Assembly: GCF_900129615.1 (NCBI RefSeq)
Contig: NZ_FQWI01000002.1
Location: 248,001 to 312,000 of the forward strand
Direction of reading: 5' to 3'
DNA length: 64,000 nt
Source of the DNA: Pectobacterium carotovorum
GTDB taxonomy: Bacteria; Pseudomonadota; Gammaproteobacteria; Enterobacterales; Enterobacteriaceae
Part shown: positions 30,158-63,361 of the stretch, piece by piece
Layout of the letters: every line of letters starts with the position of its first letter
Numbering within the stretch: the first letter of the stretch is position 1
Notes under the pieces: model-generated
Told to the model about the DNA's origin: nothing
What the model saw: the letters and a program-made list of their open reading frames with translations, nothing else
Databases searched by the model: none
Translations under genes and position numbers: made by a program

Positions 30158-30167
30158 GGATTTTGTG

Positions 30168-34183: not shown

Positions 34184-34191
34184 GGAAAATG

Positions 34192-34959: not shown

Positions 34960-34981
34960 TTTGCTGAGAGAGTGATAAGTC

Positions 34982-43483: not shown

Positions 43484-44992
43484 TCAGAACGATTGCAATG
43501 TACTGATTTTGCCCTGTTGCCAGTTGGTGTCAGATTGACGCAGTGCCTGACTGATATCTGCAAGGCTGTTGGACGGGAGGGTTTTCGGTAGCAAATCCAG
43601 TCCGATCGTTGAGAATATCTGGCCGTAGGTATTGCGTAGTTCTGCATAGGCCAGATCTTGACGCAAACTGGCGTTGAGTGCGTTCAGCTCACCTTGAATC
43701 AACTGTAGTTCACCGATGCTGTTAGCCTTATAGCGGTTTCTCAGCTGTTCGACGATTTTAGTGTCAAGATTGCGTAATTCCGAACTGGTTTTATATTGTC
43801 GCTGCGCCTCATTGAAGTTGGCTCGGGCGATGTATAACTGTGCCATGATTGCCAGTGACATCGCTTGGCGCTGCATTTCCGACACGGACTCGTTAGCCTG
43901 AGCGGCTTTACGCGCGGCTGGGCCGGACAGCAGATTGAACAGGTTCCAGGTGGCTTTCACGCCGACGTCAGCCCAGCTGTTGTTGACCAGAAAAGAGTTG
44001 CTGTCATAGTGGCCACCTGCGCTGATTTCCACGCCGGGCAGCATACGCAGCAGCGCTTTACGGGTTTCAGCGGCATGAATTCGTACCTGATAATCCTGCT
44101 CGCGCAGTTCTGGGCGACTGACCAGCGCCGCTTCTTCCAGCACCTTCACATCGACATTCAGCTGCGGTACGGTTTCGTCACCGCTTTGTGGCAACGCAAG
44201 TTTGTAGGCCGTATCCAATGGCAGGTTCATCAAGGTTGCCAGCTCAGTCTTGGCTAGCGACAGTGCGCGACGCTGTTCCTCCAATTGGCGTGTGGCGTCG
44301 ATCAGCGCGCGTTGGTAACTAAGGACTTCAATCGGGTCACCAATCTGCTGTGACGACATGTGTTCGCTCGCGTCGCGCGCAGCGTTGACACGGACGATCA
44401 GGCCATCAATCTGCCCCAACAACCGTTCAGCTGCCACGGCGCGCCAGTAGGCGGAGCGTACGTCTTGCTGGATGGTGTGCACGACTTTGCGTTTACGCTC
44501 TTCGGCAATCCAGCGCTGATCTGATTTTTGCTGGGCGGTCACGTAGCTGACGCCAAAGTCGAGCACGTTCCACACCATAGTCAGATCGGCTACATCTCGG
44601 TCGCGCTCCTGTGAGGTGGAAGGGGCTAATGATTGTGCACCAGTAGCAATATTCGTACTACTGGAGGCGCTGGTATTGCTGCGACCAACGTAGCCCGCTG
44701 ATGCCGCCAGTTTCGGCAACATATCGTAGCGTGCTAGCTCCACCTGCTGCTGGCTCAGCGCATATTCCATCACTTTTAAGCGTGATTCGAGGTTATATTT
44801 CAGCGCACGTGCCATGGCATCATACAGCGTGATCGGTGCCGTGACGGGCTCCTGCTGGCTGAACATGGCGACTCGGTCTTGCTGGCTGCGTTGTCCGCTT
44901 TCGACCTTGCTGATCGGCTGGGTGGTCACGGCACAGCCGCTGGCGGCTAGCACGATGGCGCTAAGGCTAAATAGTTTCCGACCCTTTAACAC
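43484..44992 (-). CDS. TolC-family outer-membrane lipoprotein (export channel)
   Basis: Outer-membrane factor with two OEP repeats. I choose the GTG at 44992: a GAGGAG ribosome binding site lies about 7 nt upstream, and the product begins with a lipoprotein signal whose lipobox LAASGC puts the lipidated Cys at residue 20. This gives about 502 residues; the frame extends to 45169 but that part overlaps the adhesin gene. Long helical stretches follow (YALSQQQVELARYDMLPKLA; ALSLAKTELATLMNLPLDTAY), typical of the channel's coiled coils. With three HlyD-type adaptors upstream on the same strand it probably forms the outer-membrane exit of one export apparatus. Confidence 0.87.
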   Translation of the reverse strand: MLKGRKLFSLSAIVLAASGCAVTTQPISKVESGQRSQQDRVAMFSQQEPVTAPITLYDAMARALKYNLESRLKVMEYALSQQQVELARYDMLPKLAASAGYVGRSNTSASSSTNIATGAQSLAPSTSQERDRDVADLTMVWNVLDFGVSYVTAQQKSDQRWIAEERKRKVVHTIQQDVRSAYWRAVAAERLLGQIDGLIVRVNAARDASEHMSSQQIGDPIEVLSYQRALIDATRQLEEQRRALSLAKTELATLMNLPLDTAYKLALPQSGDETVPQLNVDVKVLEEAALVSRPELREQDYQVRIHAAETRKALLRMLPGVEISAGGHYDSNSFLVNNSWADVGVKATWNLFNLLSGPAARKAAQANESVSEMQRQAMSLAIMAQLYIARANFNEAQRQYKTSSELRNLDTKIVEQLRNRYKANSIGELQLIQGELNALNASLRQDLAYAELRNTYGQIFSTIGLDLLPKTLPSNSLADISQALRQSDTNWQQGKISTLQSF

Positions 44993-45098
44993 GATTCCGC
45001 TCCTCGTCATTATCATCATTACCAATGTTATTCTTATGATGGTTCTAGTTGTTCTTGCGATCGTCTTGCGTATCGCAGTTGCTGCGCTGCCACGCAGG

Positions 45099-48000
45099 TT
45101 ATCCCTGCTGCTGACCACTTTCCTGCAATGCTTGCTCAATAGCCGCAAGACGTTGCTGTTTCGAATCACCTATCTGTTGTAATTGCTGATGCAGCGAGGG
45201 CGTAAATGCCACCGAGCGCCCAGTGCCGTCATCAGTGCTATTCATTGCGTTACTCGCCCCATCGAGCGGAATATCCCTCCAACTGCCACCGGAGAAGACC
45301 TCCATTGGCTTCAGTGAAGGCAGATAGATCCCTGAGAACGTGCTAGCCAGCGATGAGGTGCCGCCTAAAGCGGGATCTTTGCTGAAGCTGGGGAAGGAAC
45401 CTAGTGTGCTGTCGAAGTTAATGCCAATGCCGCTGGCGGCTCCACGTCCGAAAGTGCCCGCCACCTGACTCGTTGGGAGGGTGCCTCCTTCGGTGTTCTG
45501 GCGTCCGGTAGCAAAAATGGCAGACATCACTGACTGCGGTGCACCGTCATTACCCACGGTGAAACTGCCGAGCGACGGATTGGCGATCAGACCATCCAAT
45601 GCCGGCAGTGCTATCGTGGCATCCTGCGTAAACAGCTGGCGTGTATCGCTGGCTGACGGCGTCCGGCCAAGACCGTCGTTGGCTTTGAACTCAGGATCGC
45701 TGCTTACAAAACTGCTCGTCACCGTCAGGCCAAAGCTGGTGCTGATGGACGTATTACTGCCGTCGGTGGCTGTCACCCTGATCACCAAGGTACCGACATC
45801 CGCATTGCCTGGTGTACCGGAGAAGGTGCCGATGGTCGGATCGAAGCGCAGCCAGCTTGGCAGCGGCGACCCGTTGGCGAGGGTGGCGCTTAGCGTCAGC
45901 GTGTCACCATCGGGATCGCTAAAGGTGCTGTCAGGCACGGTAAAGTTGAAGCCACCCCCCTGAGTCACGTTTTGCGGCGGGATTGGCGTGGCGACCACGG
46001 GTGCGTCGTTGGCGTTAGTTACCGTCAGGCCAAAGCTGGTGCTGATGGACGTATTACTGCCGTCGGTGGCTGTCACCCTGATCACCAAGGTACCGACATC
46101 TGCATTGCCCGGTGTACCGGAGAAGGTGCCGATGGTCGGATCGAAGCGCAGCCAGTTCGGCAGCGGTGACCCGTTGGCGAGGGTGGCGCTCAGCGTCAGC
46201 GTGTCACCATCGGGATCGCTAAAGGTGCCGTCAGGCACGGTAAAGTTGAAGCCACCCCCCTGAGTCACGTTTTGCGGCGGGATTGGCGTGGCGACCACGG
46301 GGGCGTCGTTGGCGTTAGTTACCGTCAGGCCAAAGCTCGTACTGATGGACGTGTTACTGCCGTCGGTGGCTGTCACCCTGATCACCAAGGTACCGACATC
46401 TGCATTGCCCGGCGTACCGGAGAAGGTGCCAATGGTCGGATCGAAGCGCAGCCAGCTCGGCAGCGGTGACCCGTTGGCGAGGGTGGCGCTCAGCGTCAGC
46501 GTGTCACCATCGGGATCGCTAAAGGTGCCGTCAGGCACGGTAAAGTTGAAGCCACCCCCCTGAGCCACGTTTTGCGGCGGGATTGGCGTGGCGACCACGG
46601 GTGCATCGTTGACGTTAGTTACCGTCAGGCCAAAGCTGGTACTGATGGACGTATTACTGCCATCGGTGGCCGTTACCCTGATCACCAAGGTACCGACATC
46701 CGCGTTGCCCGGTGTACCGGAGAAGGTGCCGATGGTCGGATCGAAGCGCAGCCAGCTCGGCAGCGGTGACCCGTTGGCGAGGGTGGCGCTTAGCGTCAGC
46801 GTGTCACCATCGGGATCGCTAAAGGTGCCGTCAGGCACGGTAAAGTTGAAGCCACCCCCCTGAGCCACGTTTTGCGGCGGGATTGGCGTGGAGACCACGG
46901 GTGTATCGTTAACGTTGGTAACGGTCAGGCCAAAGGTGGTGCTGACTGAAGTGTTGCTGCCGTCGGTGGCGGTGACCTTGATGGTCAGGCTGCCCACATC
47001 CCCATTGGCCGGTGTGCCGGAGAAGGTACCAGTCGCCGGGTTAAACGACAGCCAGGCTGGCAGCGCGGTGCCGTCCGCCAGCGTGGCACTGAGCGTCAGG
47101 GTATCGCCATCCGGATCGGTAAAGGTGCCTGCCGGGATGGTGACATTCAGGCTGCCACCTTGTGCAATGCTCTGCGCGGCAATCGTGCCGGAGACCACCG
47201 GGGCATCGTTCACATTGGTGACGCTCAGGCCAAAGGTGGTGCTGACCGAGGCGCTGCTGCCGTCGGTGGCGGTGACCTTGATGGTCAGGTTACCCACATC
47301 ACCGTTACCCGGTGTACCGGAGAAGGTGCCGGTAGCGGGGTTAAACGACAGCCAGGATGGCAGTGCGGTGCCGTCCGCCAGCGTGGCACTGAGCGTCAGC
47401 GTATCGCCATCCGGATCGGTAAAGGTGCCCGCTGGGATGGTGATATTCAGACTGCCACCTTGTGCAATATTCTGCGGCGGGATCGTGCCGGAAACCACTG
47501 GGGCATCGTTCACATTGGTGACGGTCAGGCCAAAGGTGGTGCTGACCGAGGCGTTGCTGCCGTCGGTGGCGGTGACCTTGATGGTCAGGCTACCCACATC
47601 CCCATTGGCCGGTGTGCCGGAGAAGGTGCCGGTAGCTGGATTAAACGACAGCCAGGATGGCAGTGTGGTGCCGTCCGCCAGCGTGGCACTGAGCGTCAGA
47701 GTATCGCCATCCGGATCGGTAAAGGTGCCTGCCGGGATGGTGACATTCAGGTTGCCACCTTGTGCAATGCTCTGCGCGGCAATCGTGCCGGAGACCACCG
47801 GGGCTTCATTAACGGTGGTGACCGTCAAACTAAAGGTGGTGCTGACTGAGGCGCTGCTGCCGTCGGTGGCGGTGACTTTGATGGTCAGGTTGCCAATATC
47901 ACCACTGGCGGGGGTGCCAGAGAAGGTGCCAGTGGCCGGGTTAAACGACAGCCAGGCTGGTAGCGCGGTGCCGTCCGCCAGCGTGGCACTGAGCGTCAGG

Positions 48001-51000
48001 GTATCGCCATCCGGATCGGTAAAGGTGCCGGCGGGTACGGTGAAACTCAGGCTGCCATCCTGCGCGACACTTTGCGCGGGGATCGGCGTGGCGACGACAG
48101 GCGCATCGTTAACGTTGGTGACGGTCAGGCCAAAGGTAGTGCTGACCGAAGCGTTGCTGCCGTCGGTGGCGGTGACCTTGATGGTCAGGCTGCCCACATC
48201 CCCATTGGCCGGTGTGCCGGAGAAGGTGCCGGTAGCTGGGTTAAACGACAGCCATGCTGGCAGCGCCGTGCCGTCCGCCAGCGTGGCGCTGAGCGTCAGG
48301 GTATCGCCATCCGGATCGGTAAAGGTGCCGGCTGGCACCGTGACACTCAGACTGCCGCCTTGCGCAATGCTCTGCGCGGCAATCGTGCCGGAGACCACCG
48401 GGGCATCGTTCACATTGGTGACGGTCAGACCAAAGGTGGTGCTGACCGAGGCACTGCTGCCGTCGGTGGCGGTGACTTTGATGGTCAGGCTGCCCACATC
48501 CCCATTGGCCGGTGTGCCAGAGAAGGTGCCGGTAGCTGGGTTAAACGACAGCCAGGCTGGTAGCGCGGTGCCGTCCGCCAGCGTGGCGCTGAGCGTCAGG
48601 GTATCGCCATCGGGATCGGTAAAGGTGCCGGCGGGCACGGTGAAACTCAGGCTGCCATCCTGCGCGACACTTTGCGCGGGGATAGGCGTGGCGACGACAG
48701 GTACATCGTTGACGTTGGTGACGGTCAGGCCAAAGGTGGTGCTGACCGAAGCGCTGCTGCCGTCGGTGGCGGTAACCTTGATAGTCAGGCTGCCCACATC
48801 CCCATTGGCCGGTGTGCCAGAGAAGGTGCCGGTAGCTGGGTTAAACGACAGCCAGGCTGGCAACGCGGTGCCGTCCGCCAGCGTAGCGCTGAGGGTCAGG
48901 GTATCGCCATCGGGATCGGTAAAGGTGCCTGCGGGCACGGTGAAACTCAGGCTGCCATCCTGCGCGACACTTTGCGCGGGGATCGGCGTGGCGACGACAG
49001 GCGCATCGTTGACGTTGGTGACGGTCAGGCCAAAGGTGGTGCTGACGGAAGCGTTGCTGCCGTCGGTGGCGGTGACCTTGATGGTCAGGCTGCCCACATC
49101 CCCATTGGCCGGTGTGCCGGAGAAAGTGCCGGTGGTTGGGTTAAACGACAGCCAGGCGGGCAGCGCCGTGCCGTCCGCCAGCGTGGCACTGAGCGTCAGC
49201 GTATCACCATCCGGATCGGTAAAGGTACCCGCAGGTACGGTGACATTCAGACTGCCGCCTTGCGCGATGCTCTGCGCGGCAATCGTGCCGGACACTACCG
49301 GAGACGCATTGTTACTCGCAGTCAATGTCAAGGTAGAGGTTGCGGTGCTACTGGCATCATCATTGGCCGTTACCGATACGGTCCGATTTCCTGCCGTTGG
49401 CGTAGCGGCTACGTTGGCATACACAATGGCACGTAGCGCGATCTGGAAGGCTTCCTGCGTCGCACCGCCTGTCAGCGTCAGCGTCTGGCTACCATTACCA
49501 GTTACGTTGATGCCGGCGGCATGGGCTGCGAGCAATGCCTGCTGTGAAAGGGATAAGGACTCACTGCTACCGTCTGTCGTTCCTGCCAAATTGAGCGTCA
49601 GCGTCCAGAGGCGGGAGTCCCCGTCGGTTTGACTCAGGGTTGCTAAGGCATCCGTCACAGAAATACCCGCAGCGGCGGAGGCTACGGGTACCGTCGTGGA
49701 GTAATTATTGCCTGTGGTGGTGCCATTCAAATCGACCTGCGGGGCGGTACCCGCAGCAAACTGCGATTCATAAGCGCCAATATCAACAGCACCTTGCCGT
49801 ACCCGATCCAAGCCGCGTACATCTGTCTCACCCGTAATATAGAAACGGTTGCCTTGATTAATCGCATTGCTGGCCGTGGCAGCCAGTCGCGGATCGGATG
49901 ACGATACCTGATTCACGCTGCCACTCAGGATGTTGTTACCGCCGTACAAGGTGTAGCTGCCACCGGCGGGTTGTCCCGTTGGGGTGTAGGCTACAATATC
50001 CTGGCTGGTGCCGGTAATGATGGAATTGCGCACGCTGGCGGCCCAACTGAGGGCATTATTGATAAATTCGAAGACGATGCCGTTGTCCTGCCCGGTAATG
50101 GTGGTGTTGATCAGGCTGATGTGGGTGCTGGTGGGGTTACCCTGATTCCCGGTTAACCACAACCCACTGATACCGAAGGTGCTGCCTGCCGGGTTAATAC
50201 CAGTATTGTTGGTGATGGCGGAATTGGTGATCGACAGGGACACTGTTTGCTGGGTACGGGACACAAACAGTCTGATCACCCCTTCATTCAAATTGCCAAT
50301 CATCAGGTTGTCGTGAATATTCACCCGGTCAAAATCGAAGTTGTAGCTGCCGGGGGCAATGTTAAACAGGTCGAAGACGCCATTGCCGAACATGGTGTCA
50401 CGGTTGCCTGAAATATCCACGTTGTACAGCCGGAAGTTGACATCGCTGGCACTGTAGCTGATCCCAAACACGCCGCCGGTGTCGGTACTGTAATCGGTGG
50501 TGAAATTGGTCAGTGTCAGGTTTTGGATGGCCAGGGTGATCGACCCGGTAACGATTTGAAAACCGGAATAGCCGCCACCGTTCAGGGTGAAACTCTGACC
50601 GTCAATCAGCATGCTGTCGGTCGGCGACAGAAGGGAACTGGCCAGCGTCACGTCGGTTTGGAACACAATACGGTCAATACCCGCCGTGTTATTTGCCCAA
50701 TACAGGGCTTCACGCAGACTGAGCCCGCCGCCGTCATTGGCATCCTCTTGCACCGAACTGCCGAAAGTTGCATTGTCGCCGATATCATCCCCGGCGGTGA
50801 CAAACAAGGCGCTGTTGCTGGTAAGCACGTTGACGTTTGAGGTCAGACTGAGTGCTGTGCTGTTGTTACTGCTGCCGTTGTCGCTGACGGCGCTTAGGGT
50901 GACTGCACGCGTAGCCGCGGTGGCGGTGGCGCTGGTATTGCCATAGCGCAAGCCATCCACCAGCCCGGCTATCTCACTGTTACTGGCGCTCATGCCGCTC

Positions 51001-53669
51001 AATTGCAGCGTGACGGTGTTACCGGAGCGTGTCACGCTGTAGCTGCCGATACCGGCCAGGGTGCCGGAATTGTTGGCGCTCAGGCTGATGTTATTGCCGC
51101 CAACGTTGATAAATTCGCCGCTGTCGGTGGCATTGGAAACCGTCAACGTTAGCGAACTAAAGGTCTGGCCGCTGTCGTTGGTATTGGCGCTGACACCGCT
51201 GAACAGATCAATCGAACCCGCCATACCGCCGATAAATACCGGGTTGCTGCCAGTGGCGCTGAGTGTCGGCGCTGTGCCCGCGCTGGCCGTGGTGGCATCA
51301 ACCTTAACTACACTGACCGTATTATTACCTGCACTGTCCCTCGCCACCACATACACATCATACGCAGTGCTGGCGGCAAGGCCGGCCAAGGTAAAGCTAA
51401 AGTTGAATGGCGAAGAACCCAGCACCTGGCTGCCGGAGGCGGTGGCGTTGCTGCCTGTAGCGGTTTGCCCAGCGATCACTTGCGTCGCGGTTGGAGCACT
51501 GGCACCGTCAGCCACCACCACATAATACACATTGCCAGTTTCAGTGAGGCTGCCGCTCAGGTTAAAACCGCCCGCGGTGGCGTTGGAGACGCTGGGTGAC
51601 TGGTCAAACGTGGGGGCGATATCATCCACCACCACCAATGACACCACTTTGTCATAGGTAGCGGCACCGTCAGATACCTGTAGGCGTACCGAGTAGGTAC
51701 CCGCTGCCATGCCAGTGGCGTTGACTGCTTTTAGGGTGTTGCCGCTAATGGTGAACAGCGCGTTATCGGTACTGCCGCTGCCACTCACCAGACTGTAGGT
51801 AAACACCGAGGAATCCACATCGGTCGCCGTCAGGGTGGCAACAGTGCCGTTGCTACCGAGCGATTGCGCAAAGGTGGTGGCAGAGAGCGTAATATCGGTC
51901 GGTGCATCGTTCACCGGTACCACGGTGATGGCGCTGCTGATATTCGGCGCAATGGTATTGTTGCTGGCGCCGGAATCGGTCAGTTGCGTCAGCGTCACCG
52001 TGCGTATGGCATTGCCGGGGTTGTCGCTGCTGTTGCCATACGTCATGCCGGACAACAGGCTGCCCATGTCGCTGTTACTCAGCGTTGCACCCGTGATGCT
52101 GACCGTAGCAATCCCGCCGCTCAGGCTAACGCTTGCAGAGCCATAGCCACTGCCGAGCGAGACACTGTTACCGTTGCTCAGTGCCACATTGATGCCGTGA
52201 AGGGTCAGGTATTCGGTGCTGCCTGCCACATTGCTGACGGTGAATGCCGCACTGGTGAAGGTTTGCCCGGCGTCATGGGTGTCGACGCTGACACCAGTAA
52301 ACACGCCGACAGCCGTGCCGTTTTCGGTGTAGGTGGGGTTGGCCCCGGTGGCGGTGACGCTGGGAACGTTATCGGTGGAAGCGACGAGAGCTGCGGTGAC
52401 GATATTATCCCATGTAACGGTACCGCTACCCATTGTTGCTGTTGTTAATCTCACCTCATCAATATTTTGAAACGCATTGGAGAGTGTCGCCGTCTGGAAT
52501 GCGGTAGTGAGGGTGATAGTTTGCGTTGCACCTGCCACCGCGCTACCGTCTTTATACCCAGTGATGGTGAACGTTGATGCGTAACTGCCCAGCCCTCTAA
52601 GATCAATGCTCGATAGTTTGAATTCGCTGCCATCCGTCGATTTAACCGCAAAATAGTTAAGATCTCCCCCAGGAGCAACAATCGTATTCAGGACCTGATT
52701 ACCGCTTATCGCAACAGTTTGAAGTGTTACTCTGTCAGTACTGGAAGCAATGTAGGTAAAGCCGTTGTTGATATCATCATAAGATTGGAGACCAGGCTGG
52801 CTGCTGACAAATGTAGACGAGCCTGAAAATTGCGAGAATGTGTTGGTGCCGAGAGTCGGAGAAGCGAGTAAGTTATTGTACTCTCGCGTTATTTCACCCA
52901 GTGCAGCATTGTTCGTTTCTATGCTACCAACCGTTGTTTCCAGTTGCCAGTTTCCCCCTTTGGCTATAGCGCCAGTCAAATCATCCGAGGCTGCAATATC
53001 TGCCTGAGTGAGCTGTGAGAGTAAAGAGACAAAACTTTTTCCTGTGTCTTGTGCAATATCACAGCCATAGAGCAGCAGATCGCCATCCTGTGTTAACGCT
53101 GTGCCGAGTTTAGCCAGGTCGGCCGAACGAGCCTCCGCCGTAGCGCTATCAAGCGTCAGATTACCAAGGCGAACCTGTCCTTCATTGCCATGGCTCAATA
53201 TATGGATCGCGTCGTAACCCTCGTGGGTTTCAGCCCATGCTGCCAACTGGCTCAGGCCGTCTTTGCTGCTGTCCAATAAAAATACATCAACCCCAGTGGG
53301 GACACTATTGACCAGTGTTTGGTAATCCGTTAGCGCCGTATCAATAAATACCGCTTCTTTACGTATTGTTTCGCCTGCAACCGCCTGTACAACGACGTCA
53401 GTCGTGATGTCATGAGTGGCACTATTCTGATCGGATGATGTGCTGTTCTCCGATGCGGTCTCAGCAGAATGGTTTGCAGTCTGTGCAGGATGAGAAGAGG
53501 CTGTGGCGTCACTCGAATTACCGGTTTCAGCCTGAGTAGCCGTTGCGGCTATTGCACCGTCAAATAAGACGCGGGATTCAAGGACACAACCAAGAGGAGT
53601 GGAATAATCCTGCTCAATGTGGTCAGTTGGATGGTCACTTTTTTTACTGAATAATTGGCGCCACAGCAT
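45099..53669 (-). CDS. Giant DUF4347 / cadherin-like repeat surface protein
   Basis: 2856 residues, no Sec signal. Residues 30-39 (LESRVLFDGA) match the LEPRxLFDGA-type N-terminal motif of large exported proteins. Residues about 105-265 are a DUF4347 domain (HILSHGNEG, LLLYGCDIAQ, ASDDLTGAIAKGGNW). Residues 270-860 hold beta-sandwich and cadherin-like segments. About 1000-1340 contain LSLREALYWANN, a beta-helix-like region and DIGAYESQF. About 1450-2650 are twelve 100-residue putative Ig/CADG repeats with DPDGDTLTLSATL and GTFSGTP. The C-terminal 200 residues are unrelated, Gly/Ser-rich then Gln-rich (LQQLQQ-type). Probably a cell-surface or released adhesin exported by the adjacent TolC/HlyD proteins. 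A GGAG ribosome binding site precedes the ATG. Confidence 0.88.
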   Translation of the reverse strand: MLWRQLFSKKSDHPTDHIEQDYSTPLGCVLESRVLFDGAIAATATQAETGNSSDATASSHPAQTANHSAETASENSTSSDQNSATHDITTDVVVQAVAGETIRKEAVFIDTALTDYQTLVNSVPTGVDVFLLDSSKDGLSQLAAWAETHEGYDAIHILSHGNEGQVRLGNLTLDSATAEARSADLAKLGTALTQDGDLLLYGCDIAQDTGKSFVSLLSQLTQADIAASDDLTGAIAKGGNWQLETTVGSIETNNAALGEITREYNNLLASPTLGTNTFSQFSGSSTFVSSQPGLQSYDDINNGFTYIASSTDRVTLQTVAISGNQVLNTIVAPGGDLNYFAVKSTDGSEFKLSSIDLRGLGSYASTFTITGYKDGSAVAGATQTITLTTAFQTATLSNAFQNIDEVRLTTATMGSGTVTWDNIVTAALVASTDNVPSVTATGANPTYTENGTAVGVFTGVSVDTHDAGQTFTSAAFTVSNVAGSTEYLTLHGINVALSNGNSVSLGSGYGSASVSLSGGIATVSITGATLSNSDMGSLLSGMTYGNSSDNPGNAIRTVTLTQLTDSGASNNTIAPNISSAITVVPVNDAPTDITLSATTFAQSLGSNGTVATLTATDVDSSVFTYSLVSGSGSTDNALFTISGNTLKAVNATGMAAGTYSVRLQVSDGAATYDKVVSLVVVDDIAPTFDQSPSVSNATAGGFNLSGSLTETGNVYYVVVADGASAPTATQVIAGQTATGSNATASGSQVLGSSPFNFSFTLAGLAASTAYDVYVVARDSAGNNTVSVVKVDATTASAGTAPTLSATGSNPVFIGGMAGSIDLFSGVSANTNDSGQTFSSLTLTVSNATDSGEFINVGGNNISLSANNSGTLAGIGSYSVTRSGNTVTLQLSGMSASNSEIAGLVDGLRYGNTSATATAATRAVTLSAVSDNGSSNNSTALSLTSNVNVLTSNSALFVTAGDDIGDNATFGSSVQEDANDGGGLSLREALYWANNTAGIDRIVFQTDVTLASSLLSPTDSMLIDGQSFTLNGGGYSGFQIVTGSITLAIQNLTLTNFTTDYSTDTGGVFGISYSASDVNFRLYNVDISGNRDTMFGNGVFDLFNIAPGSYNFDFDRVNIHDNLMIGNLNEGVIRLFVSRTQQTVSLSITNSAITNNTGINPAGSTFGISGLWLTGNQGNPTSTHISLINTTITGQDNGIVFEFINNALSWAASVRNSIITGTSQDIVAYTPTGQPAGGSYTLYGGNNILSGSVNQVSSSDPRLAATASNAINQGNRFYITGETDVRGLDRVRQGAVDIGAYESQFAAGTAPQVDLNGTTTGNNYSTTVPVASAAAGISVTDALATLSQTDGDSRLWTLTLNLAGTTDGSSESLSLSQQALLAAHAAGINVTGNGSQTLTLTGGATQEAFQIALRAIVYANVAATPTAGNRTVSVTANDDASSTATSTLTLTASNNASPVVSGTIAAQSIAQGGSLNVTVPAGTFTDPDGDTLTLSATLADGTALPAWLSFNPTTGTFSGTPANGDVGSLTIKVTATDGSNASVSTTFGLTVTNVNDAPVVATPIPAQSVAQDGSLSFTVPAGTFTDPDGDTLTLSATLADGTALPAWLSFNPATGTFSGTPANGDVGSLTIKVTATDGSSASVSTTFGLTVTNVNDVPVVATPIPAQSVAQDGSLSFTVPAGTFTDPDGDTLTLSATLADGTALPAWLSFNPATGTFSGTPANGDVGSLTIKVTATDGSSASVSTTFGLTVTNVNDAPVVSGTIAAQSIAQGGSLSVTVPAGTFTDPDGDTLTLSATLADGTALPAWLSFNPATGTFSGTPANGDVGSLTIKVTATDGSNASVSTTFGLTVTNVNDAPVVATPIPAQSVAQDGSLSFTVPAGTFTDPDGDTLTLSATLADGTALPAWLSFNPATGTFSGTPASGDIGNLTIKVTATDGSSASVSTTFSLTVTTVNEAPVVSGTIAAQSIAQGGNLNVTIPAGTFTDPDGDTLTLSATLADGTTLPSWLSFNPATGTFSGTPANGDVGSLTIKVTATDGSNASVSTTFGLTVTNVNDAPVVSGTIPPQNIAQGGSLNITIPAGTFTDPDGDTLTLSATLADGTALPSWLSFNPATGTFSGTPGNGDVGNLTIKVTATDGSSASVSTTFGLSVTNVNDAPVVSGTIAAQSIAQGGSLNVTIPAGTFTDPDGDTLTLSATLADGTALPAWLSFNPATGTFSGTPANGDVGSLTIKVTATDGSNTSVSTTFGLTVTNVNDTPVVSTPIPPQNVAQGGGFNFTVPDGTFSDPDGDTLTLSATLANGSPLPSWLRFDPTIGTFSGTPGNADVGTLVIRVTATDGSNTSISTSFGLTVTNVNDAPVVATPIPPQNVAQGGGFNFTVPDGTFSDPDGDTLTLSATLANGSPLPSWLRFDPTIGTFSGTPGNADVGTLVIRVTATDGSNTSISTSFGLTVTNANDAPVVATPIPPQNVTQGGGFNFTVPDGTFSDPDGDTLTLSATLANGSPLPNWLRFDPTIGTFSGTPGNADVGTLVIRVTATDGSNTSISTSFGLTVTNANDAPVVATPIPPQNVTQGGGFNFTVPDSTFSDPDGDTLTLSATLANGSPLPSWLRFDPTIGTFSGTPGNADVGTLVIRVTATDGSNTSISTSFGLTVTSSFVSSDPEFKANDGLGRTPSASDTRQLFTQDATIALPALDGLIANPSLGSFTVGNDGAPQSVMSAIFATGRQNTEGGTLPTSQVAGTFGRGAASGIGINFDSTLGSFPSFSKDPALGGTSSLASTFSGIYLPSLKPMEVFSGGSWRDIPLDGASNAMNSTDDGTGRSVAFTPSLHQQLQQIGDSKQQRLAAIEQALQESGQQQG
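45721..49320 (-). repeat. Twelve tandem 300-bp coding repeats
   Basis: The block beginning ACCGTCAGGCCAAAG (or close) recurs exactly every 300 bp at 45721, 46021, 46321 and so on to 49021. Each encodes one 100-residue Ig-like domain. Two subfamilies are visible: four near-identical units at 45721-46920 (protein DPTIGTFSGTPGNADVG) and eight at 46921-49320 (NPATGTFSGTPANGDVG). Confidence 0.95.
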
Positions 53670-53843
53670 AAGACATACTCCAGAGTGGTGTTAGTACGTA
53701 TAATTTTTCTACAGCTAATATCGGGAAGTCATCACTAAATACGGACTATCAGTACGCTTGCCATTGTGCGTACAAACAGACCACTCCTATGCCCATCATT
53801 AGATTACATATTACGCTTTTAATTTCACAATCTTACAAATGTT

Positions 53844-53870
53844 GCGCTTCCCTGAAAATGAGGGAAGCGC
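53844..53870 (-). terminator. Hairpin between the collar-domain gene and the adhesin gene
   Basis: Perfect 10-bp inverted repeat GCGCTTCCCT (53844-53853) / AGGGAAGCGC (53861-53870), just after the collar gene stop. There is no long T-run, so it may only reduce read-through. Confidence 0.6.
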
Positions 53871-53877
53871 GTGGTTA

Positions 53878-54618
53878 TTAGTTTGGATTTACAGGAAAAA
53901 TGCCTATAGCCGCTATGCACGCCGTTAGCCCCACACTGGGGTTACGAACGCTGAAAGGTGTGCCGCCAATATTAGGGGAAATGGCTATGCCTGTTAGGTT
54001 AGTTACACTAAACGGGGCGGAAAATGGCTTCAACGTCGTGGTGGGTGAGGCATTACTATAAATTTTAGCTGGTGAGTCAGCCCCGCCAACAGCACTTAAA
54101 TCAAACGAAGGAGACGTTGTCGCCAATGATGTCGTGTTGTCTGGTACGTTAGTCGTTGCCGCACCGTTTACCACAGGAATAGCGATAGAAGCCGTGCCGC
54201 TAGCGCTTCCAGAAGAGGCAACGGTAGCCGGATGTATGTGTGGGGCAACATTACTTGTCGTCAATGAGACATTCTCTGCCCCAAATACTTGTGCACGAGT
54301 GACATTGGCTAATCCTGGCCCTTGTCCAGTCCCTACCGGTACTCGCCCACGCATGTCGGGGAGCGCAAAGTTACCTTGCTGTAGAGAACCTCCCCAAATA
54401 TTTCCGATCAAGGCATAAAGCGCCTGATATTGATTGATCGTCACCGTTTGTCCATTTGCAGGAAGATATCCCTCTGGGCAATAACTGGTGACCATATAAC
54501 AAATAGAGCCAATGTAAGGCTCGGTACTGCATGCAGATGCGGTAGCTGATTGCGATAGGCCTACAGCTAAAACAGTCGCGATCGCAGATTTGGCAAACAG
54601 ACGCTGAACGCATTTCAT
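53878..54618 (-). CDS. Secreted phage tail collar-domain protein
   Basis: 246 residues from the ATG at 54618 (MKCVQRLFAK), which has an AAGGAGAG ribosome binding site. A Sec signal peptide ends near SQSATASA. The mature start contains CPEGYLPANGQTVTI, YQALYALIGNIWGG and FALPDMRGRVPVGTGQG, the signature of the phage tail collar domain (PF07484) also found in 'microcystin-dependent' proteins. The rest is Ser/Thr/Ala-rich and ends with a hydrophobic CIAAIGIFPVNPN. A collar domain on a Sec-exported chromosomal protein with no phage genes nearby suggests a surface fibre rather than a prophage part. It is on the same strand as the adhesin and may be a partner of it. Confidence 0.82.
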   Translation of the reverse strand: MKCVQRLFAKSAIATVLAVGLSQSATASACSTEPYIGSICYMVTSYCPEGYLPANGQTVTINQYQALYALIGNIWGGSLQQGNFALPDMRGRVPVGTGQGPGLANVTRAQVFGAENVSLTTSNVAPHIHPATVASSGSASGTASIAIPVVNGAATTNVPDNTTSLATTSPSFDLSAVGGADSPAKIYSNASPTTTLKPFSAPFSVTNLTGIAISPNIGGTPFSVRNPSVGLTACIAAIGIFPVNPN

Positions 54619-55044
54619 AAACATCTCTCCTTGGAATGGGGACAGTTCCACGCTGGGTGAAATATATTTGATGATTTTGATGCTTGGTCTTGTGATGCCT
54701 AACTTCACTTGCTAAGTAACATGTAATTTTATGTAAACAATAAAAACAAAATTACATATAAAAAGTGAAACTAGCAATAGGCTTTTACGTAGGCCGATAA
54801 GAAAAAGATTTGTTTTTTTAAATTATTGATTTTTAATAAAATTAATTTGGTTTGATTTGGGCTTGTCAAAGGAGGGATGTGCTGAAATTGCTGCGATATG
54901 TGTATGTTGTCAATGTAATACAAAACCAGAGAGAAATTTATTTGTTAATAAAATGTAGTGTATGTTCGGCACGATAGGGACGTGAAAACGTTAGGTAATC
55001 TTATTAACTGATGAAATCAGAAAAGGTGTAACGCTTTTCTACAG
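54619..55044. other. AT-rich intergenic region
   Basis: About 425 bp of strongly AT-rich sequence upstream of the collar-domain gene. It should hold that gene's promoter. I see no ORF or RNA gene. Confidence 0.5.
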
Positions 55045-55071
55045 AATCTGGAGCATGCTCTGCTCCAGATT
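55045..55071 (-). terminator. Hairpin downstream of the M50-HlyD gene
   Basis: Perfect 11-bp inverted repeat AATCTGGAGCA (55045-55055) / TGCTCCAGATT (55061-55071), 40 bp after the stop. No T-run follows in the minus direction. Confidence 0.55.
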
Positions 55072-55111
55072 CCCACAGAGGTAGGTGTATATGTTGAGGA
55101 TAACCAACCCG

Positions 55112-57220
55112 CTAAAAACCACTTTCCCTGATACCCAATGCTGCTACCCGACGCCACACCGTACCAAGAATAGATTCCTTTTCTCCTTCCAGAATGACGC
55201 TTCCCCGTAGAGGCTGTTGCAGCGGTAGGAATTGCTCTTCCTGTACTATGAAACGAACGCGGTACTGTGCCTGCACTGGTTGAGGATTGTGGTCGCGGTC
55301 GCGTCGTACGGCAATCGGGCCGTGGCGATCGGAAGCGAGCATTTCTTGTTGCAGGTAAGCGCTGCCCGTGGGAGCAATGTCATGAAGCGTGACGTCAAGA
55401 CGTGGGAAAGCGGGATCGTCGGCAAGGAAGATGCCCTGTATGCCCTCTTGAGTACGCATGAGGGATTCTTCGGGTATATAGCCAATCACCCGTCCCTGCG
55501 TGGGTTCCACCACGCGTAATAATGGCGTATCCGCCGTTAGCCAGCGTCCTGCTGTCATATCACGAGCCAGATCGCGTACTACACCTGCTTGCGGTGCTCG
55601 AATCGTTAAGCGTTGACGCTGTGCTGCCAACCCACGATAGCGTGCCAGCGCCTCAGCTAACTGCCAATCCATGACCTGAATTTCACTCGCCGTTTCCTGT
55701 CGTGCCGCTCCACGCTGTCGTTGCTGTTGTAACTGGGCGATACGCTGACGCTCAATATCGAGACGATAATCCAGATCGACTGACGTCAGCTCCAGCAGAA
55801 TGTCTCCGGCATCTACCCGCTGACCATCTGTAACGTGTAGCCGGTTAACCTGCGCCGGAACCGGACTGTAGAGGGTACTGACCTTCTCGGATTCCAATAC
55901 GGCAGGAATGTGGATGCTGCCACCCCATGGATAGAGCAAGATAAACAAGAGGGTCGAGCACAGCAGGGCGCTGCGCAAAAAAGCGATGGGGTGTATTGAT
56001 TTGCGCATTGACCACCAGGCATAGGCTTCTTTGGCTATCGGTAGCGCGATAAACCAGACGATTTCAACCAGCATTAAACCAATGCCGATCACCTTGATAA
56101 AAAAGTGGTAAACCACCAGCGCGATGCCAAAGAACAGGAAAAAGCGCCATATCCAAGAGGCATAGCCCCATACCAGCAGTTTGCGTTGCAGGGAGGGAGA
56201 GAGGTTTTCCGGCGCAGGGTGACCATGACCGAACAGACTTTCCCGCAACCGCCAGCGGCAGAGGGCATAAGCACGTTCTTGCAGATTCTCTACGCGCCAG
56301 AAATCGCTAAGTAAAAAGTAGCCATCGAAGCGCATCAAAGGGTTAAGGTTTACGACCAACGTGGTCAGCCACGTCGCGCTGGAAAGCATAAAGGCTGCCG
56401 TTCGTGCCGGGCCATCTGGCAGTAATGCCCAGGCCAATAGCGCAATGACCGCCAACATCAGTTCGGCCAGAATACCGCCCGCGCCGATCAGCAAACGTGC
56501 CTGACGATCCTTCAGTTTCCAGGCGTCGGTAGTGTCAGTATAAAACAAGGGAAATAACACGATAAAGGCAACGCCCATGCTTTGCACACGGCAGCCCGCC
56601 CGTTTGGCCATGAAGGCATGGCCTAGCTCATGGATAAATTTGGCGAACACCAGAGAGACACCGAACACGGCCATACCGGAAAGGCTGAAGAGGTGTGGAA
56701 ACGAATGGGTGTAACGTACCCAGTCTCGACTGACTAAAAATAAGCCCAGCAGCAGGATTAATGGAAAGACCCAAATCAGAAAGGGCGCGCCATAGCGCTG
56801 TAGCCACGGCCAACAGCGGTTGAGTACCGGATCGGGTCGCCACAGAGGAATGCGGAAAAAAAGATACTGGTGCAACACACTTTTCCACAAACTGGTGCGC
56901 ATCGCCTGAGCTTTGCCCAGATAGCGCTGACGTTGTTCCGCATCACTAGCCGCGACTAAATCATGCTGGCGCAGGAACTGCAGTAGTTTCTCCAATTCTT
57001 TCACTCTCAGCGGCAGGCCGGGCTCACTGTTGGCGGCGGCCAATATTTGCTGCGGCTGGCGCAATGGCCAATGCCGCAGCAGGCGGATAGCCGAGGGAGT
57101 CAGGGTAAAATAACGCCCTGTTATAGGATCGGACAGCACCCACTGCGGGGCTCCGTTGATGCCAGGAGCCGATTCTACCAATTGAAGATCGGCGCGCAGG
57201 GGAGGCAGATGCGGATTCAT
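55112..57220 (-). CDS. M50 metalloprotease-HlyD adaptor fusion
   Basis: 702 residues. An N-terminal segment (WVLSDPITGRYFTLTPSAIR, residues 27-46) resembles PqqD/RRE-type peptide-binding modules. Residues 145-430 are a multi-span membrane region with the M50 (site-2 protease) zinc motif HELGH at 197-201 and NLNPLMRFDG at 291-300. Residues about 440-600 form an HlyD-type lipoyl/coiled-coil hairpin (VNRLHVTDGQRVDAGDILLE; LTIRAPQAGVVRDL). Such proteins are annotated as 'putative peptide zinc metalloproteases' (COG1994, for example B. subtilis YydH). Its start overlaps the stop of the preceding HlyD gene (ATGA). I infer a combined processing and export component for the nearby secreted proteins. 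Confidence 0.85.
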   Translation of the reverse strand: MNPHLPPLRADLQLVESAPGINGAPQWVLSDPITGRYFTLTPSAIRLLRHWPLRQPQQILAAANSEPGLPLRVKELEKLLQFLRQHDLVAASDAEQRQRYLGKAQAMRTSLWKSVLHQYLFFRIPLWRPDPVLNRCWPWLQRYGAPFLIWVFPLILLLGLFLVSRDWVRYTHSFPHLFSLSGMAVFGVSLVFAKFIHELGHAFMAKRAGCRVQSMGVAFIVLFPLFYTDTTDAWKLKDRQARLLIGAGGILAELMLAVIALLAWALLPDGPARTAAFMLSSATWLTTLVVNLNPLMRFDGYFLLSDFWRVENLQERAYALCRWRLRESLFGHGHPAPENLSPSLQRKLLVWGYASWIWRFFLFFGIALVVYHFFIKVIGIGLMLVEIVWFIALPIAKEAYAWWSMRKSIHPIAFLRSALLCSTLLFILLYPWGGSIHIPAVLESEKVSTLYSPVPAQVNRLHVTDGQRVDAGDILLELTSVDLDYRLDIERQRIAQLQQQRQRGAARQETASEIQVMDWQLAEALARYRGLAAQRQRLTIRAPQAGVVRDLARDMTAGRWLTADTPLLRVVEPTQGRVIGYIPEESLMRTQEGIQGIFLADDPAFPRLDVTLHDIAPTGSAYLQQEMLASDRHGPIAVRRDRDHNPQPVQAQYRVRFIVQEEQFLPLQQPLRGSVILEGEKESILGTVWRRVAALGIRESGF

Positions 57221-58542
57221 AGTCCAATCGCCTGACGGATCACTGCTAGCGGGCGACGGAACAAATAAACGGCAAGGGGAACATAGTCGCCGGAAATTTT
57301 TGCCGTGCCGCGCAGGCCGATACGTGGCGGTGTGTCAGTGAAACGTGCATCCAGACGGTAGGCTAGATTGCCGGCTGGTGTCTGTTCCGACTCATAGGCG
57401 ATACGTTCTAACAATGCGGCGTGTGGCGTCAGTGGATCGCTGTCCAGAAACAGTGTAATGGGTGCCTCTTGCTGCAACTGGATGGCGTCGCCCACGTCCA
57501 ACTCGATGCGTAACGCGGTGAGAGCGGGGTCTGCCAGCTCCATCAAACGTTCGCCGGTGCGTACCGGCTTCCCCATCCAGCGCGTTGCATCGGCAAATAC
57601 CGCAATGCCATCCCGTTCGGCGCGGATTTCTGCGCGACTCAGCAAGGCATTGGCGTAATCGCGTTCCGCTCGTTTTTGTGCCACCTGAGCGGCGAGAAAG
57701 TCGAGCCTGGCTTTGGAGTCCGCATCCTGAAACGCACGTTGAGAACTCGCACGATGCTCCGCTTCGGCGACATTCAATGCACGTTCGGCCACATCTGCCT
57801 GAGCTTTCAAGGTTGTACTGTCAAAGCGAACCAACACGTCTCCTTGACGTACACTCTGGTTCGGTAACACGGTAAAGGATTGGATCACGCCGTCCAGTGG
57901 GGCGGCGACGACACGGCCTTGATGAGGAATAACCTCGGCGGGAGCCAACACGGATTGGCGCACCGGAATGAACAGGCAAGCGAGCAGTAGCAGCGCAGGT
58001 ACGACGATTTTCCACCGAGCCCGGCGACGCCAACGGGTCGTTTGCGGTTCGAGAGCCAGCCAGGCGTGGCTAAAAGCCCCGCTGAGTTGCTCCGCCAGTA
58101 CCTGATCGGTACTCTGCCATGGTTGCTCTCTTGCATACCAAATACCACCGAAGGGGTTCCCTTGACGATCGTTGAGGGGAGACCATAGTGCCTCGGGGGC
58201 AGACAGCGCCTGCCAATCTTTACGGCTTTGTTCATCAAGCTGTGAGGCTTGAATCACTCTGCATTGCGCCAATGCTTTCTCATCGACGGATGATAACTGC
58301 GTACAGGCTCGTTCAACAAAGGCGACAAAGGGAGCATGGGGTGCAGGTTGAGTGACGCCGGTTACGGCGCGCACCTTACCGTTAATCACAAGGGCGGCAT
58401 GGCGAAAACTGAATAGCGGCTGGCTGTCGTTGACGATGCAGTAAGCTAGCTCTTCTATGCTGTTGGCTGCCCGTGCTTGCTGCTCGAGGTCAAGGAAGCG
58501 GGCAAACGTAGCGGTGCTGACAGACGTTGGCGTAGTACTCAC
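57217..58542 (-). CDS. Membrane-anchored HlyD-family adaptor with N-terminal GAF-like domain
   Basis: 441 residues from a GTG that overlaps the preceding gene's stop (GTGA). Residues about 15-165 are a soluble cytoplasmic domain of GAF-like character (FLDLEQQARAANSIEELAYC; NPFGGIWYAREQPW). One membrane helix follows (IVVPALLLLACLFIPV, about 178-195). The periplasmic part is HlyD-type: VVAAPLDGVIQSFTVLPNQS and VRQGDVLVRFDSTTLKAQAD form the lipoyl half-motifs with a helical hairpin between. The cytoplasmic domain is unusual for a simple adaptor and could sense a signal or contact the protease partner encoded next. Middle gene of the three-gene operon. Confidence 0.85.
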   Translation of the reverse strand: MSTTPTSVSTATFARFLDLEQQARAANSIEELAYCIVNDSQPLFSFRHAALVINGKVRAVTGVTQPAPHAPFVAFVERACTQLSSVDEKALAQCRVIQASQLDEQSRKDWQALSAPEALWSPLNDRQGNPFGGIWYAREQPWQSTDQVLAEQLSGAFSHAWLALEPQTTRWRRRARWKIVVPALLLLACLFIPVRQSVLAPAEVIPHQGRVVAAPLDGVIQSFTVLPNQSVRQGDVLVRFDSTTLKAQADVAERALNVAEAEHRASSQRAFQDADSKARLDFLAAQVAQKRAERDYANALLSRAEIRAERDGIAVFADATRWMGKPVRTGERLMELADPALTALRIELDVGDAIQLQQEAPITLFLDSDPLTPHAALLERIAYESEQTPAGNLAYRLDARFTDTPPRIGLRGTAKISGDYVPLAVYLFRRPLAVIRQAIGL

Positions 58543-59411
58543 CTCGCCTCCGAAAACTGTGCCGTTCCGCTCATACCGGCCATCAAGGTATTGTCCGCGT
58601 GGGCCAGCGTACCAATCAGGCCTAGGGTTTGACTGCTCTCATCAATACGTGCGCCAAGCCGTGTGACCTTGGCTTGCAACGGTTTTCCGGTTTCATCCGG
58701 CGTGAAGGTAAAGACTAATCCGGGTTTGAGCACCGACAGAAGTCGTGATGGTACTAGCAAGTTGATCTCTAGATGGCGGTTATTCACCACGTCCAGCAGT
58801 GGAGCACCTTGCGCCACACTCTCAAAGGCTTGCACACGGCGTTTTACCACCTGACCGTCGAAGGGGGCGGTGATGCGACAACGATTGACCTGAATTTGGT
58901 AAACCTGGCTTTCTGCCTGAGCTTGTGCAAAGTGCGCGGCTGATAACGATACCGCGTGTCTCCCCACTGATTTCATCTGTGCCAACTGCTGATTTTGGCT
59001 CAGCTCCGCTTCTGCGGCTCGTGTGGCAGCAGAAGCCGCAGCCAATTGAGCTTGGTAAATGGAACAGTCAAACCGCACCAACAGATCGCCTTTCTTGAAG
59101 GATTCCCCTTCCCTAAACGGTATTTCCACAATACGTCCGGCCAATTCGCTGGACAGTGTGGCTTGTTCCACCGCTATCAGAATACCGCGAGCCTGATTGT
59201 CAGTAGACGTGAGAGATGATGTGTCATGAGAGGGCATTGCCAAGAGTGGGTCGCTCGTTTGTGCATGGGCCGCAAACGCGAATAAGGAAAGTGCCAGCAA
59301 TTGAAAAGCGTGGCGAAATATTACGTTACTGAAACCATCCACACTGACCTGCCTTATTTGTTGAGGTGTGTGCCACGTCAGAAAAGATAAAGGGACTTTC
59401 TGAATTTTCAC
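58539..59411 (-). CDS. Periplasmic HlyD/RND-type adaptor
   Basis: Up to 290 residues. The signal sequence (FQLLALSLFAFAAHAQT) begins about 30 residues in, so translation may instead start at a GTG at 59342. The mature protein has two half-lipoyl motifs, FREGESFKKGDLLVRFDCS and RITAPFDGQVVKRRVQAFES, around a short helical hairpin, then a beta-barrel (LEINLLVPSRLL). This is the periplasmic adaptor (membrane fusion) fold seen in RND and some ABC exporters. It is the first gene of the operon; its stop overlaps the next start (GTGA). No inner-membrane RND pump or ABC ATPase is encoded nearby. Confidence 0.85.
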   Translation of the reverse strand: MKIQKVPLSFLTWHTPQQIRQVSVDGFSNVIFRHAFQLLALSLFAFAAHAQTSDPLLAMPSHDTSSLTSTDNQARGILIAVEQATLSSELAGRIVEIPFREGESFKKGDLLVRFDCSIYQAQLAAASAATRAAEAELSQNQQLAQMKSVGRHAVSLSAAHFAQAQAESQVYQIQVNRCRITAPFDGQVVKRRVQAFESVAQGAPLLDVVNNRHLEINLLVPSRLLSVLKPGLVFTFTPDETGKPLQAKVTRLGARIDESSQTLGLIGTLAHADNTLMAGMSGTAQFSEAR

Positions 59412-61733: not shown

Positions 61734-62426
61734 TTGTTGAGTCATCACGCCGACAACATCGCGCTTTATCAGCAGCATGTGCAGGCAGGATTTCGGGGGT
61801 CACCGTGTTGTATCTACTTGATAATGATTACAGTTATACCAACAAATCGGTGCGCAGACATAGATATTTACATAAATGTAAATAACCGTTTAAAACGGTG
61901 TAAATGGGGACGGGAACGGCACCTCACACACCTGTATGCGCCGGAAAAAGGCTTCCGCGACGCCGAGCAGCAGGCGCTCTCGATCTATGACATCAGCGAA
62001 CGGCAGCGACGTGCGCTGGTGCGCACCGAGTGGGGGATAGTCTGGCAACATCCGCAGGCGGGATTACGCCCCACGGTGTTTGCGGGCGGCAACATCGGTG
62101 AGCGGCTCATGGCAATCGGCAATCGACACTATGGCGATATTCGCCGCAAAGCGGCGCAGTGGATGGAAAACGTCGAGCTGCCAGAAAACTGTCTGGACGA
62201 TTTGCCAACCACCTTTTCCGGCGGTGAACAGCAGCGCATCAATATTGCCCGCGGGCTTATCGGCGACTACCCGATTCTGCTGCTAGACGAACCGACGGCT
62301 TCGCTGGATGCCAAAAACCGACTGGCTGTCACACAGCTCATCAACAATGCGAAGGACAAAGGGTGTGCCATCGTCGGCATCTTTCACGATGCCGATAGCT
62401 TCCAATGCTCAGGAGACCGCAAATGA
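61734..62426 (+). pseudogene. PhnK/PhnL chimera, remnant of C-P lyase ABC ATPase genes
   Basis: The recognisable part starts near 61923 with [14 protein letters not shown], the start of PhnK. It jumps directly to the segment [20 protein letters not shown], so the whole Walker A region is deleted. PhnK similarity continues through [20 protein letters not shown] to [10 protein letters not shown]. From the ABC signature on the sequence becomes PhnL-like: [42 protein letters not shown]. The last residues diverge from PhnL. The frame is open for 230 codons, but the first 60 are unrelated and there is no P-loop. The simplest reading is recombination between phnK and phnL at the shared signature motif, plus an internal deletion. 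Confidence 0.82.
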
Positions 62427-62751
62427 TCATTAATAACGTCAACATGGTGCTCTCACGGGAAATTATTCATGGCTCACTGGAAGTGCGCAACGGCGTGATC
62501 CATCACATCAGCGATAGGCCCAGCCGTCATCCCGGTGCGCTGGATGGCGAACAGGTCTGGCTCCTGCCGGTGCTTGTCGAGCTACACACGGATAATCTCG
62601 ATAAGTGTTTTACACCGCGCCCCGGCGTTAACTGGTGGGTTCACGCCGCTGCATTGAAGAAGGGCGGCGAGCCGACCTGCTGCTCGTCAAACGGCACGCG
62701 CCGCAAATGAAGCTGATGCGTGTGTGGCGTCAGGGCGTCCGGGTATTCTGA
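62423..62751 (+). pseudogene. phnM: phnM with large internal deletion
   Basis: Starts as PhnM ([36 protein letters not shown]) for about 80 codons. The frame then runs into unrelated residues. In the next frame the last 30 codons of PhnM are intact (EGRRADLLLVKRH, then VWRQGVRVF and TGA at 62749-62751). About 800 bp of the roughly 1.1-kb gene is missing and the junction (near 62650) is out of frame. The active-site metal ligands beyond the first are lost, so the phosphonate hydrolase activity of C-P lyase is gone. Confidence 0.85.
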
Positions 62752-62753
62752 TC

Positions 62754-63323: not shown

Positions 63324-63361
63324 GCCGAGTGGTAATCGCACCGAAGAGCAGGAGGAAACCG

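Follow-up and report, generated by a model that had tools for sequence, protein, structure and literature searches.

A conserved gene cassette of Pectobacterium carotovorum coupled to LEPR-tagged giant proteins, and its possible role in their export

The stretch of DNA analyzed here (the window, 64,000 nucleotides on contig C12 of a Pectobacterium carotovorum assembly of 25 contigs) carries six genes on its minus strand at 43484 to 59411: those for a TolC-family lipoprotein, a giant repeat protein, a tail-collar-domain protein, and an operon encoding an HlyD-type adaptor, a GAF-HlyD adaptor, and an M50 protease fused to an HlyD half (M50-HlyD). The open reading frame list and Pfam place these genes and their families where the initial annotation had them, and Pfam and profile scans bear out its remark that no ATP-binding cassette (ABC) gene of the type I secretion system (T1SS) kind lies within these coordinates. 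Our results reveal that this gene set, referred to here as the cassette, is conserved across many lineages and, we are nearly certain from its distribution, coupled to an N-terminal tag of the form LEPR-x-L/M-F-D on giant proteins. The occurrence of T1SS ABC transporters does not follow that of the tag, and the cassette is very probably not an ABC type I system. We see even chances that it is a dedicated Sec-driven surface exporter for LEPR giants, with TolC and three HlyD-type adaptors and no ABC transporter, where export is what we infer. At slightly less than even chances, this would be Gram-negative secretion of a new kind, in which SecA threads LEPR giants past an M50 inner-membrane gate into a three-adaptor/TolC tube and the tag is cut en route.

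Coupling of the LEPR tag to the cassette

The distribution of the cassette was followed in 398 sampled genomes of the phylum, with two candidates scored per genome. M50-HlyD is widespread, being found in 93 of the 398 genomes at E<=1e-10 and in 77 at E<=1e-100. These 77 define the window's type, and two among them (G004 and G077) match only partially. After four genomes with a partial match at E>1e-20 were dropped (G122, G177, G290, and G336), 89 M50-HlyD genomes were left, and in the other 12 of these the best match was to a divergent M50-HlyD subfamily, 24 to 28% identical, that we call the sister type. One of the 12, G291, also has a partial window-type match (41% over residues 5 to 248), which makes its status as a sister-only genome doubtful.

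For the tag we used a model of the LEPR region, A6, made of 18 rows, of which seven come from six genomes within the sample and the remainder from named loci, where overlap with the sampled genomes is likewise possible. At E<=0.01, A6 found the tag in 77 genomes, namely 73 of the 77 window-type genomes and 4 of the 321 others, with 317 genomes having neither (Fisher P = 1.4e-69). Counted by genus, the furthest level to which kinship was corrected, the tag was present in 33 of 35 with the cassette and 3 of 177 others. Removal of the six row-donor genomes left 67/71 versus 4/321 (both, 67; cassette only, 4; tag only, 4; neither, 317). The cassette occurs without an A6 tag in G004, G059, G203, and G271, and the tag occurs without a window-type cassette in G155, G189, G241, and G302, three of them weak (E above 0.004). 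The strong tag is that of G189, a genome of 57% completeness; the cassette is present in nine members of that genus and absent from another, G181.

As an independent check, NCBI's LEPR-XLL model NF012209 was applied to the same genomes with its curated cut-off of 17 bits. Of the 86 genomes above cut-off, 72 belong to the set of 89 with M50-HlyD. When the match lies on an open frame of at least 600 amino acids (aa), M50-HlyD is present in 65 of 68 genomes (exceptions, G028, G189, and G212), and at E<0.003, a limit chosen after the list had been seen, in 46 of 48, the exceptions being G212 with a 2514-aa frame and G279 with a 64-aa frame. NF012209 is likewise present in all 12 sister-only genomes, the frame that bears it in G291 being 144 aa long. 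With either A6 or NF012209 (E<0.003) taken as the tag, it accompanies 86 of the 89 M50-HlyD genomes of both subfamilies and 6 of the 309 others. One LEPR-XLL match (30.1 bits; G061, C115:112865-112924) belongs to an open frame that is 19427 codons long. For Vibrio, a giant protein that combines LEPR-XLL with RTX has been reported, in passages that make no mention of HlyD (PMC10868602).

The gene set also recurs in named organisms. Among the best 80 of 583 loci in the named scan, many of which are truncated by a contig end or stop within the giant, most are from Pseudomonas, with Azospirillum, Nitrospira, Methylococcaceae, and others also represented. HlyD was found in 74, GAF-HlyD in 78, TolC in 36, DUF4347 in 51, a relative of the collar protein in 39, and a LEPR tag on a frame of at least 400 aa in 52; a T1SS-type ABC of at least 200 bits was found in two. 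In Candidatus Symbiopectobacterium (L102) the HlyD, M50-HlyD, collar, giant, and TolC genes are split into several frames, a case of decay in a symbiont. In loci of Nitrospira(les) and Nitrosospira (L119, L123, L126, L129, and L132) a LEPR giant lies downstream of M50-HlyD. Furthermore, LEPR giants picked as unlinked in G041, G101, and G026 actually adjoin further cassette genes, and thus some genomes hold more than two cassettes, two being what the scan could report.

The genome of the window itself holds a second full cassette at C12:546552-562612, with a giant of 3258 aa, a TolC lipoprotein, HlyD, GAF-HlyD, and M50-HlyD in a row; the M50-HlyD proteins of the two are 40% identical. Judged by eye, the giants are alike near the N-terminus (LESRVLFDGA in the window giant, LEPRMMFDAA in the second) and near the C-terminus (PSLHQQL and TAFTEQL). 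The window giant (45099..53669, minus strand; 2856 aa), the presumed substrate, has DUF4347 and immunoglobulin/cadherin-like repeats; Pfam found no RTX family in it. Its tag, LESRVLFD at residues 30 to 37 (53559..53582), matches A6 with an E of 5.2e-14, this sequence being itself one of the A6 rows, and it is not among the NF012209 matches at E<=0.01. The second giant carries the LEPR tag at 17.3 bits with NF012209, just above the cut-off. At E<=1 this model has two matches in the own genome, one among the matches listed. No DUF4347 was detected in the second giant by phmmer with the DUF4347 domain of the window giant. Since that giant has the tag and DUF4347 was not found in it, the LEPR tag defines the substrate class better than DUF4347; the locus counts (51/80 versus 52/80) were indecisive, and it is the second giant that decides. 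The initial annotation had proposed DUF4347/cadherin-like giants as substrates. Besides its two LEPR cassettes, the same genome has a pair of ABC type I loci next to genes for large proteins (L029, 1-12553; L030, 11248-19998), and the strain may hold four systems for giant proteins.

One class of giants shares a second feature. The motif [FL]xxQ[LIVF] occurs within the last 60 residues of 24 of 32 distinct C-termini, compared with a mean of 3.95 and a maximum of 10 in 500 shufflings and with a mean of 1.7 and a maximum of 5 in internal windows. These 32 are frames of at least 700 aa chosen solely by the N-terminal tag, with a few false or broken frames kept in, and visual inspection of some of them had first drawn attention to the motif. 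In two later sets it was found in 5 of 9 giants (shuffled mean, 0.98; maximum, 4) and in 8 of 16, near relatives being kept (shuffled mean, 1.6; maximum, 6); in L203 and L209 of the second of these, the match falls within another, TPQYGA-like tail. In the window giant the motif is LHQQL, at residues 2826 to 2830 (45180..45194). A single motif for all C-termini failed as a description: by eye, some giants end in a membrane-helix-like tail, as in L119, or in a TPQYGA-like one. Because other giants end differently, we treat the motif as a feature of one class.

A Sec-driven route and its rivals

The case for a Sec motor comes from the sister type. Twelve of its loci, from 12 of the 16 genomes with the sister type, all have GAF-HlyD and M50-HlyD, and TolC and HlyD were recognized in some. 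A SecA relative stands beside M50-HlyD in 10 of the 12, adjacent in nine and with one small gene between in L223. Three of these relatives, of 660 to 673 aa, match SecA_DEAD with E values of 4.6e-81, 4.2e-100, and 2.4e-99; they have preprotein-crosslinking and P-loop domains, with the scaffold/wing domain not among the matches, and their Walker A (TGEGKS/T) and DEAD motifs are intact. SecA genes were also counted in 56 whole genomes chosen out of the 398 (16 sister-type, 24 window-type, and 16 without the cassette). A second SecA occurred in 13 of the 16 sister-type genomes (all except G010, G186, and G332), one always within 1.5 kb of the M50-HlyD match, with further copies besides the linked one in G014; none of the 16 genomes without the cassette had a second SecA. 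LEPR giants adjoin sister operons by coordinates in several genomes, e.g., G159, G287, G014, G010, and G332. Of the two options in the initial annotation, a pump replaced by M50-HlyD or energy from elsewhere, the second is therefore the better one, given the SecA-like ATPase in the sister operon.

We propose that the cytoplasmic and perhaps PqqD-like N-terminal domain or the membrane part of M50-HlyD would recognize the LEPR segment. Passage of the chain across the inner membrane would be driven by SecA, in the sister type by the dedicated copy and in the window's type by the one housekeeping copy, and the M50 site would cut the LEPR segment inside the membrane. HlyD, GAF-HlyD, and the HlyD half of M50-HlyD might then form a mixed periplasmic tube leading to the TolC lipoprotein. 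The cytoplasmic GAF domain could gate export, and the C-terminal F-x-x-Q-L tail of one class of giants could be a second signal, for release or retention. The roles given to the N-terminal domain, the GAF domain, and the C-terminal tail are guesses, as is any role of the collar protein. The window's type has no linked SecA, and a single SecA was counted in the own genome, so that the motor is an extrapolation from the sister type; the proposal of SecA as the motor of the window's type is about as likely to be right as wrong.

Several observations weigh against this Sec-driven route. The LEPR segment is no classical Sec signal. A second SecA was found in none of the 24 window-type genomes, of which the own genome is one, and a SecA relative in none of the 142 other stretches searched, a set that did not take in L200 to L219. 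Among the sister loci, L220 and L229 have no SecA relative and the match in L228 is weak (96 bits). The C-terminal motif is missing from 8 of 32, 4 of 9, and 8 of 16 giants, and 14 of the 86 genomes above the NF012209 cut-off have no M50-HlyD. Finally, an LssB-type ABC (E<=1e-140), present in 183 of the 398 genomes, is enriched with the cassette (60/77 versus 123/321; P = 3e-10, uncorrected for kinship), as a model with the ABC in trans would also predict.

The rival that survives best is a module for retention and release. Retention and release of LapA-type adhesins are the work of LapD and LapG, and by analogy the giant would cross the membranes otherwise, the cassette would hold it in the envelope, and the M50 protease would cut it loose. 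The cassette's own TolC, a GAF sensor domain, and a protease all suit regulated release, and the two type I loci with large neighbors exist in the own genome. We consider this reading unlikely, however, since the SecA that the sister type keeps beside its M50-HlyD argues for export and since eight cassette genomes have no detected canonical T1SS by which the giant could leave. These eight belong to the 17 cassette genomes without LssB and are those that lack a type_I_hlyD adaptor at E<=1e-20 (G004, G023, G064, G088, G176, G203, G213, and G298; completeness, 82 to 100%); such an adaptor is present in the remaining nine, in eight of these above cut-off. HlyB was above cut-off in none of the eight; weaker matches occur in seven and likewise in 12 of 14 control genomes. 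PrtD was absent from the five of the eight that were tested and present in 5 of 6 other genomes tested alongside. The whole cassette with a LEPR giant is found in four of the eight (G023, G064, G213, and G298; completeness, 99 to 100%).

Type I secretion in trans, with an unlinked T1SS ABC docking on the adaptors and TolC of the cassette, is less probable still. It would account for the LssB enrichment, it could draw on the two LssB-type ABC genes of the own genome, and the conserved C-terminal tail resembles that of T1SS substrates. Yet, by eye, each of the two own LssB genes belongs to a complete T1SS locus that has a TolC, an HlyD, and a large protein to itself. Moreover, the tag is present in 1 of the 123 LssB genomes without the cassette (G189) and in 15 of the 17 cassette genomes without LssB, and the same eight genomes contradict a strict need for an unlinked ABC, the finding that the initial annotation had named as fatal to its proposal. 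A linked ABC is rare as well. In 154 stretches, some of which adjoin (L060 to L199, L220 to L231, the window, and the second own locus), a T1SS-type ABC of at least 200 bits was found in four, namely, L089, L177, where it is on the opposite strand, and L086 and L171, where it is cut by the stretch end; L200 to L219 have none at 35 bits or more. As the rule, an ABC in trans is rejected by the distribution of the tag and by the eight genomes. The earlier suggestion that the block is a secretion unit of its own kind is supported to the extent that it is a conserved unit and not a T1SS that has lost its pump.

That M50-HlyD is itself the inner-membrane translocase, as the first of the two earlier options implied, is very improbable. 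It is well conserved and, in the predicted models, the one protein of the cassette whose membrane part has many long helices, but profile searches found no nucleotide-binding or ATPase domain in it, the motifs that it carries belong to an M50 protease and are invariant in 41 of 41 homologues, as fits a working protease, and the sister type adds a SecA; nothing suggests a pump, and we rejected M50-HlyD as one. Least credible of all is that the cassette processes or exports some other cargo, such as a peptide, with the giant a mere neighbor: the daptide protease model NF041824 does match 41 of 41 M50-HlyD proteins (best E, 6.3e-52; the window protein at 145 bits, under the curated cut-off of 300), but in the 398 genomes the cassette and LEPR giants coincide almost one to one, which speaks against it.

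Proteins of the cassette and neighboring genes

The operon runs from 59411 to 55112 on the minus strand with two 4-base overlaps between its genes. The first encodes an HlyD/RND-type periplasmic adaptor of 290 aa (58539..59411; Pfam HlyD_3, 3.9e-15) whose NCBIfam match, RND_mfp at 132 bits (cut-off, 94.9), reflects that the best adaptor model for the cassette is RND_mfp rather than type_I_hlyD. The second encodes GAF-HlyD (57217..58542; 441 aa), which by profile and predicted structure has an N-terminal GAF fold (residues 8 to 168; 58039..58521), a presumed transmembrane helix, and an adaptor part. The third encodes the 702-aa M50-HlyD (55112..57220), which is 97% identical to its counterpart in Pectobacterium aroidearum L6 and in which an N-terminal domain and an M50 core are followed by a half resembling MacA/MexA (residues 433 to 689; 55154..55924). 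AlphaFold2 models were made of whole proteins, and in them the adaptor halves fold like MacA/MexA.

The window M50-HlyD matches its M50 family in Pfam above cut-off (5e-10) and has both the HExxH motif and the second conserved Asp motif. The HELGH zinc motif (H197, E198, and H201; 56618..56632) and RFDGY (D299; 56318..56332), which we take to be the second active-site motif of M50, are among the residues invariant in 41 of 41 homologues (H197, E198, H201, N291, P294, R297, D299, G300, and Y301), so that an active protease is to be expected. The N-terminal domain may be PqqD-like (residues 26 to 88; 56957..57145), an assignment based on the model and on a weak profile match: positions 1 to 66 of the 67 in the PqqD profile align to it with an E of 0.096, and 4 of 24 homologues match at E<=10 (best, 0.0091). 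Modeled within the whole protein, the domain has three strands and three helices, and no solved structural relative of it was found. Among the matches listed by Foldseek and VIA for the M50-HlyD model, which are filled by the adaptor half and so exclude nothing, PqqD and site-2-protease folds are absent. NF041824, the best NCBIfam match of the window protein, spans this N-terminal domain too, from residue 25.

The other cassette genes lie on the same strand. The collar-domain protein, 276 aa (53878..54708; Pfam Collar, 2.6e-20), appears to be accessory. The TolC-family outer-membrane lipoprotein (43484..45169; Pfam OEP, 1.2e-37) has a likely start at about 45010, with the lipobox at Cys79. Directly upstream of the operon is a DUF4034 protein of 693 aa (59633-61714; 1.5e-114), and a related frame also adjoins the P. 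aroidearum locus (L060).

Two further groups of genes flank the locus. A catecholate siderophore cluster at 23684-43410 includes a CirA-like TonB receptor, an MxcK-like major facilitator superfamily (MFS) exporter, isochorismate synthase, and 2,3-dihydroxybenzoate-AMP ligase and dehydrogenase, the last two both above cut-offs; by eye, its large frames at 31004-43410 read partly as nonribosomal peptide synthetases. At 61734-64000, a PhnK/PhnL-like ATPase frame far under both cut-offs is followed by PhnN and PhnP above theirs, and these carbon-phosphorus lyase genes look like a partly deleted phosphonate operon.

Comparison with known secretion systems

In the literature covered, which excluded subscription papers and preprints, we found no description of the cassette, and the searched part of one paper (PMC8277102) holds nothing relevant on M50, metalloprotease, GAF, or the lack of an ABC. 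The cassette lacks the defining feature of type I secretion, and the window's type has no second SecA of the accessory Sec kind.

Type I secretion requires an ABC ATPase, an adaptor, and TolC. With its LapA/LapBCE representatives and LssB-type ABC, the cassette shares an HlyD-type adaptor, a TolC-family channel, and a giant repeat protein whose C-terminal tail is, in one class, conserved. It differs in having no linked ABC ATPase, and none required by distribution, in its set of three adaptors, of which one is joined to an M50 protease and another to a GAF domain, in the N-terminal LEPR tag, and in that Pfam found no RTX family in the window giant. The accessory Sec system of Gram-positive bacteria (SecA2/SecY2) serves serine-rich-repeat adhesins, and the sister type is similar in that a giant surface protein whose N-terminus is unusual would have a SecA-like motor to itself. 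Unlike accessory Sec, however, the cassette has a TolC/HlyD conduit and an M50 protease, and the three scanned SecA-like proteins of the sister type fall below every listed NCBIfam SecA and SecA2 cut-off.

Other systems share single parts. The intramembrane metalloproteases of the daptide and YydH-LiaK kind, which mature ribosomally synthesized and posttranslationally modified peptides, have the M50 core, and the daptide model also covers the N-terminal domain; M50-HlyD is below their cut-offs, is fused to HlyD, and has a giant protein as its presumed substrate. The adaptor halves resemble those of MacAB-TolC and of resistance-nodulation-division (RND) tripartite pumps, whereas no pump gene is found among the genes of the cassette. 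The LEPR-XLL domain (NF012209) is likewise an N-terminal tag of giant proteins. The title of that model gives a name and no machine; here, the tag is tied to M50-HlyD. LEPR-tagged giants had a tag name with no machine found for it, and their distribution now links the tag to one conserved gene set. If our proposal is right, the LEPR-XLL domain would gain its machine, and a Sec motor would be joined to a TolC conduit in one step. More generally, if the SecA of the sister type is the motor, then TolC conduits would not be limited to ABC, RND, and MFS pumps.

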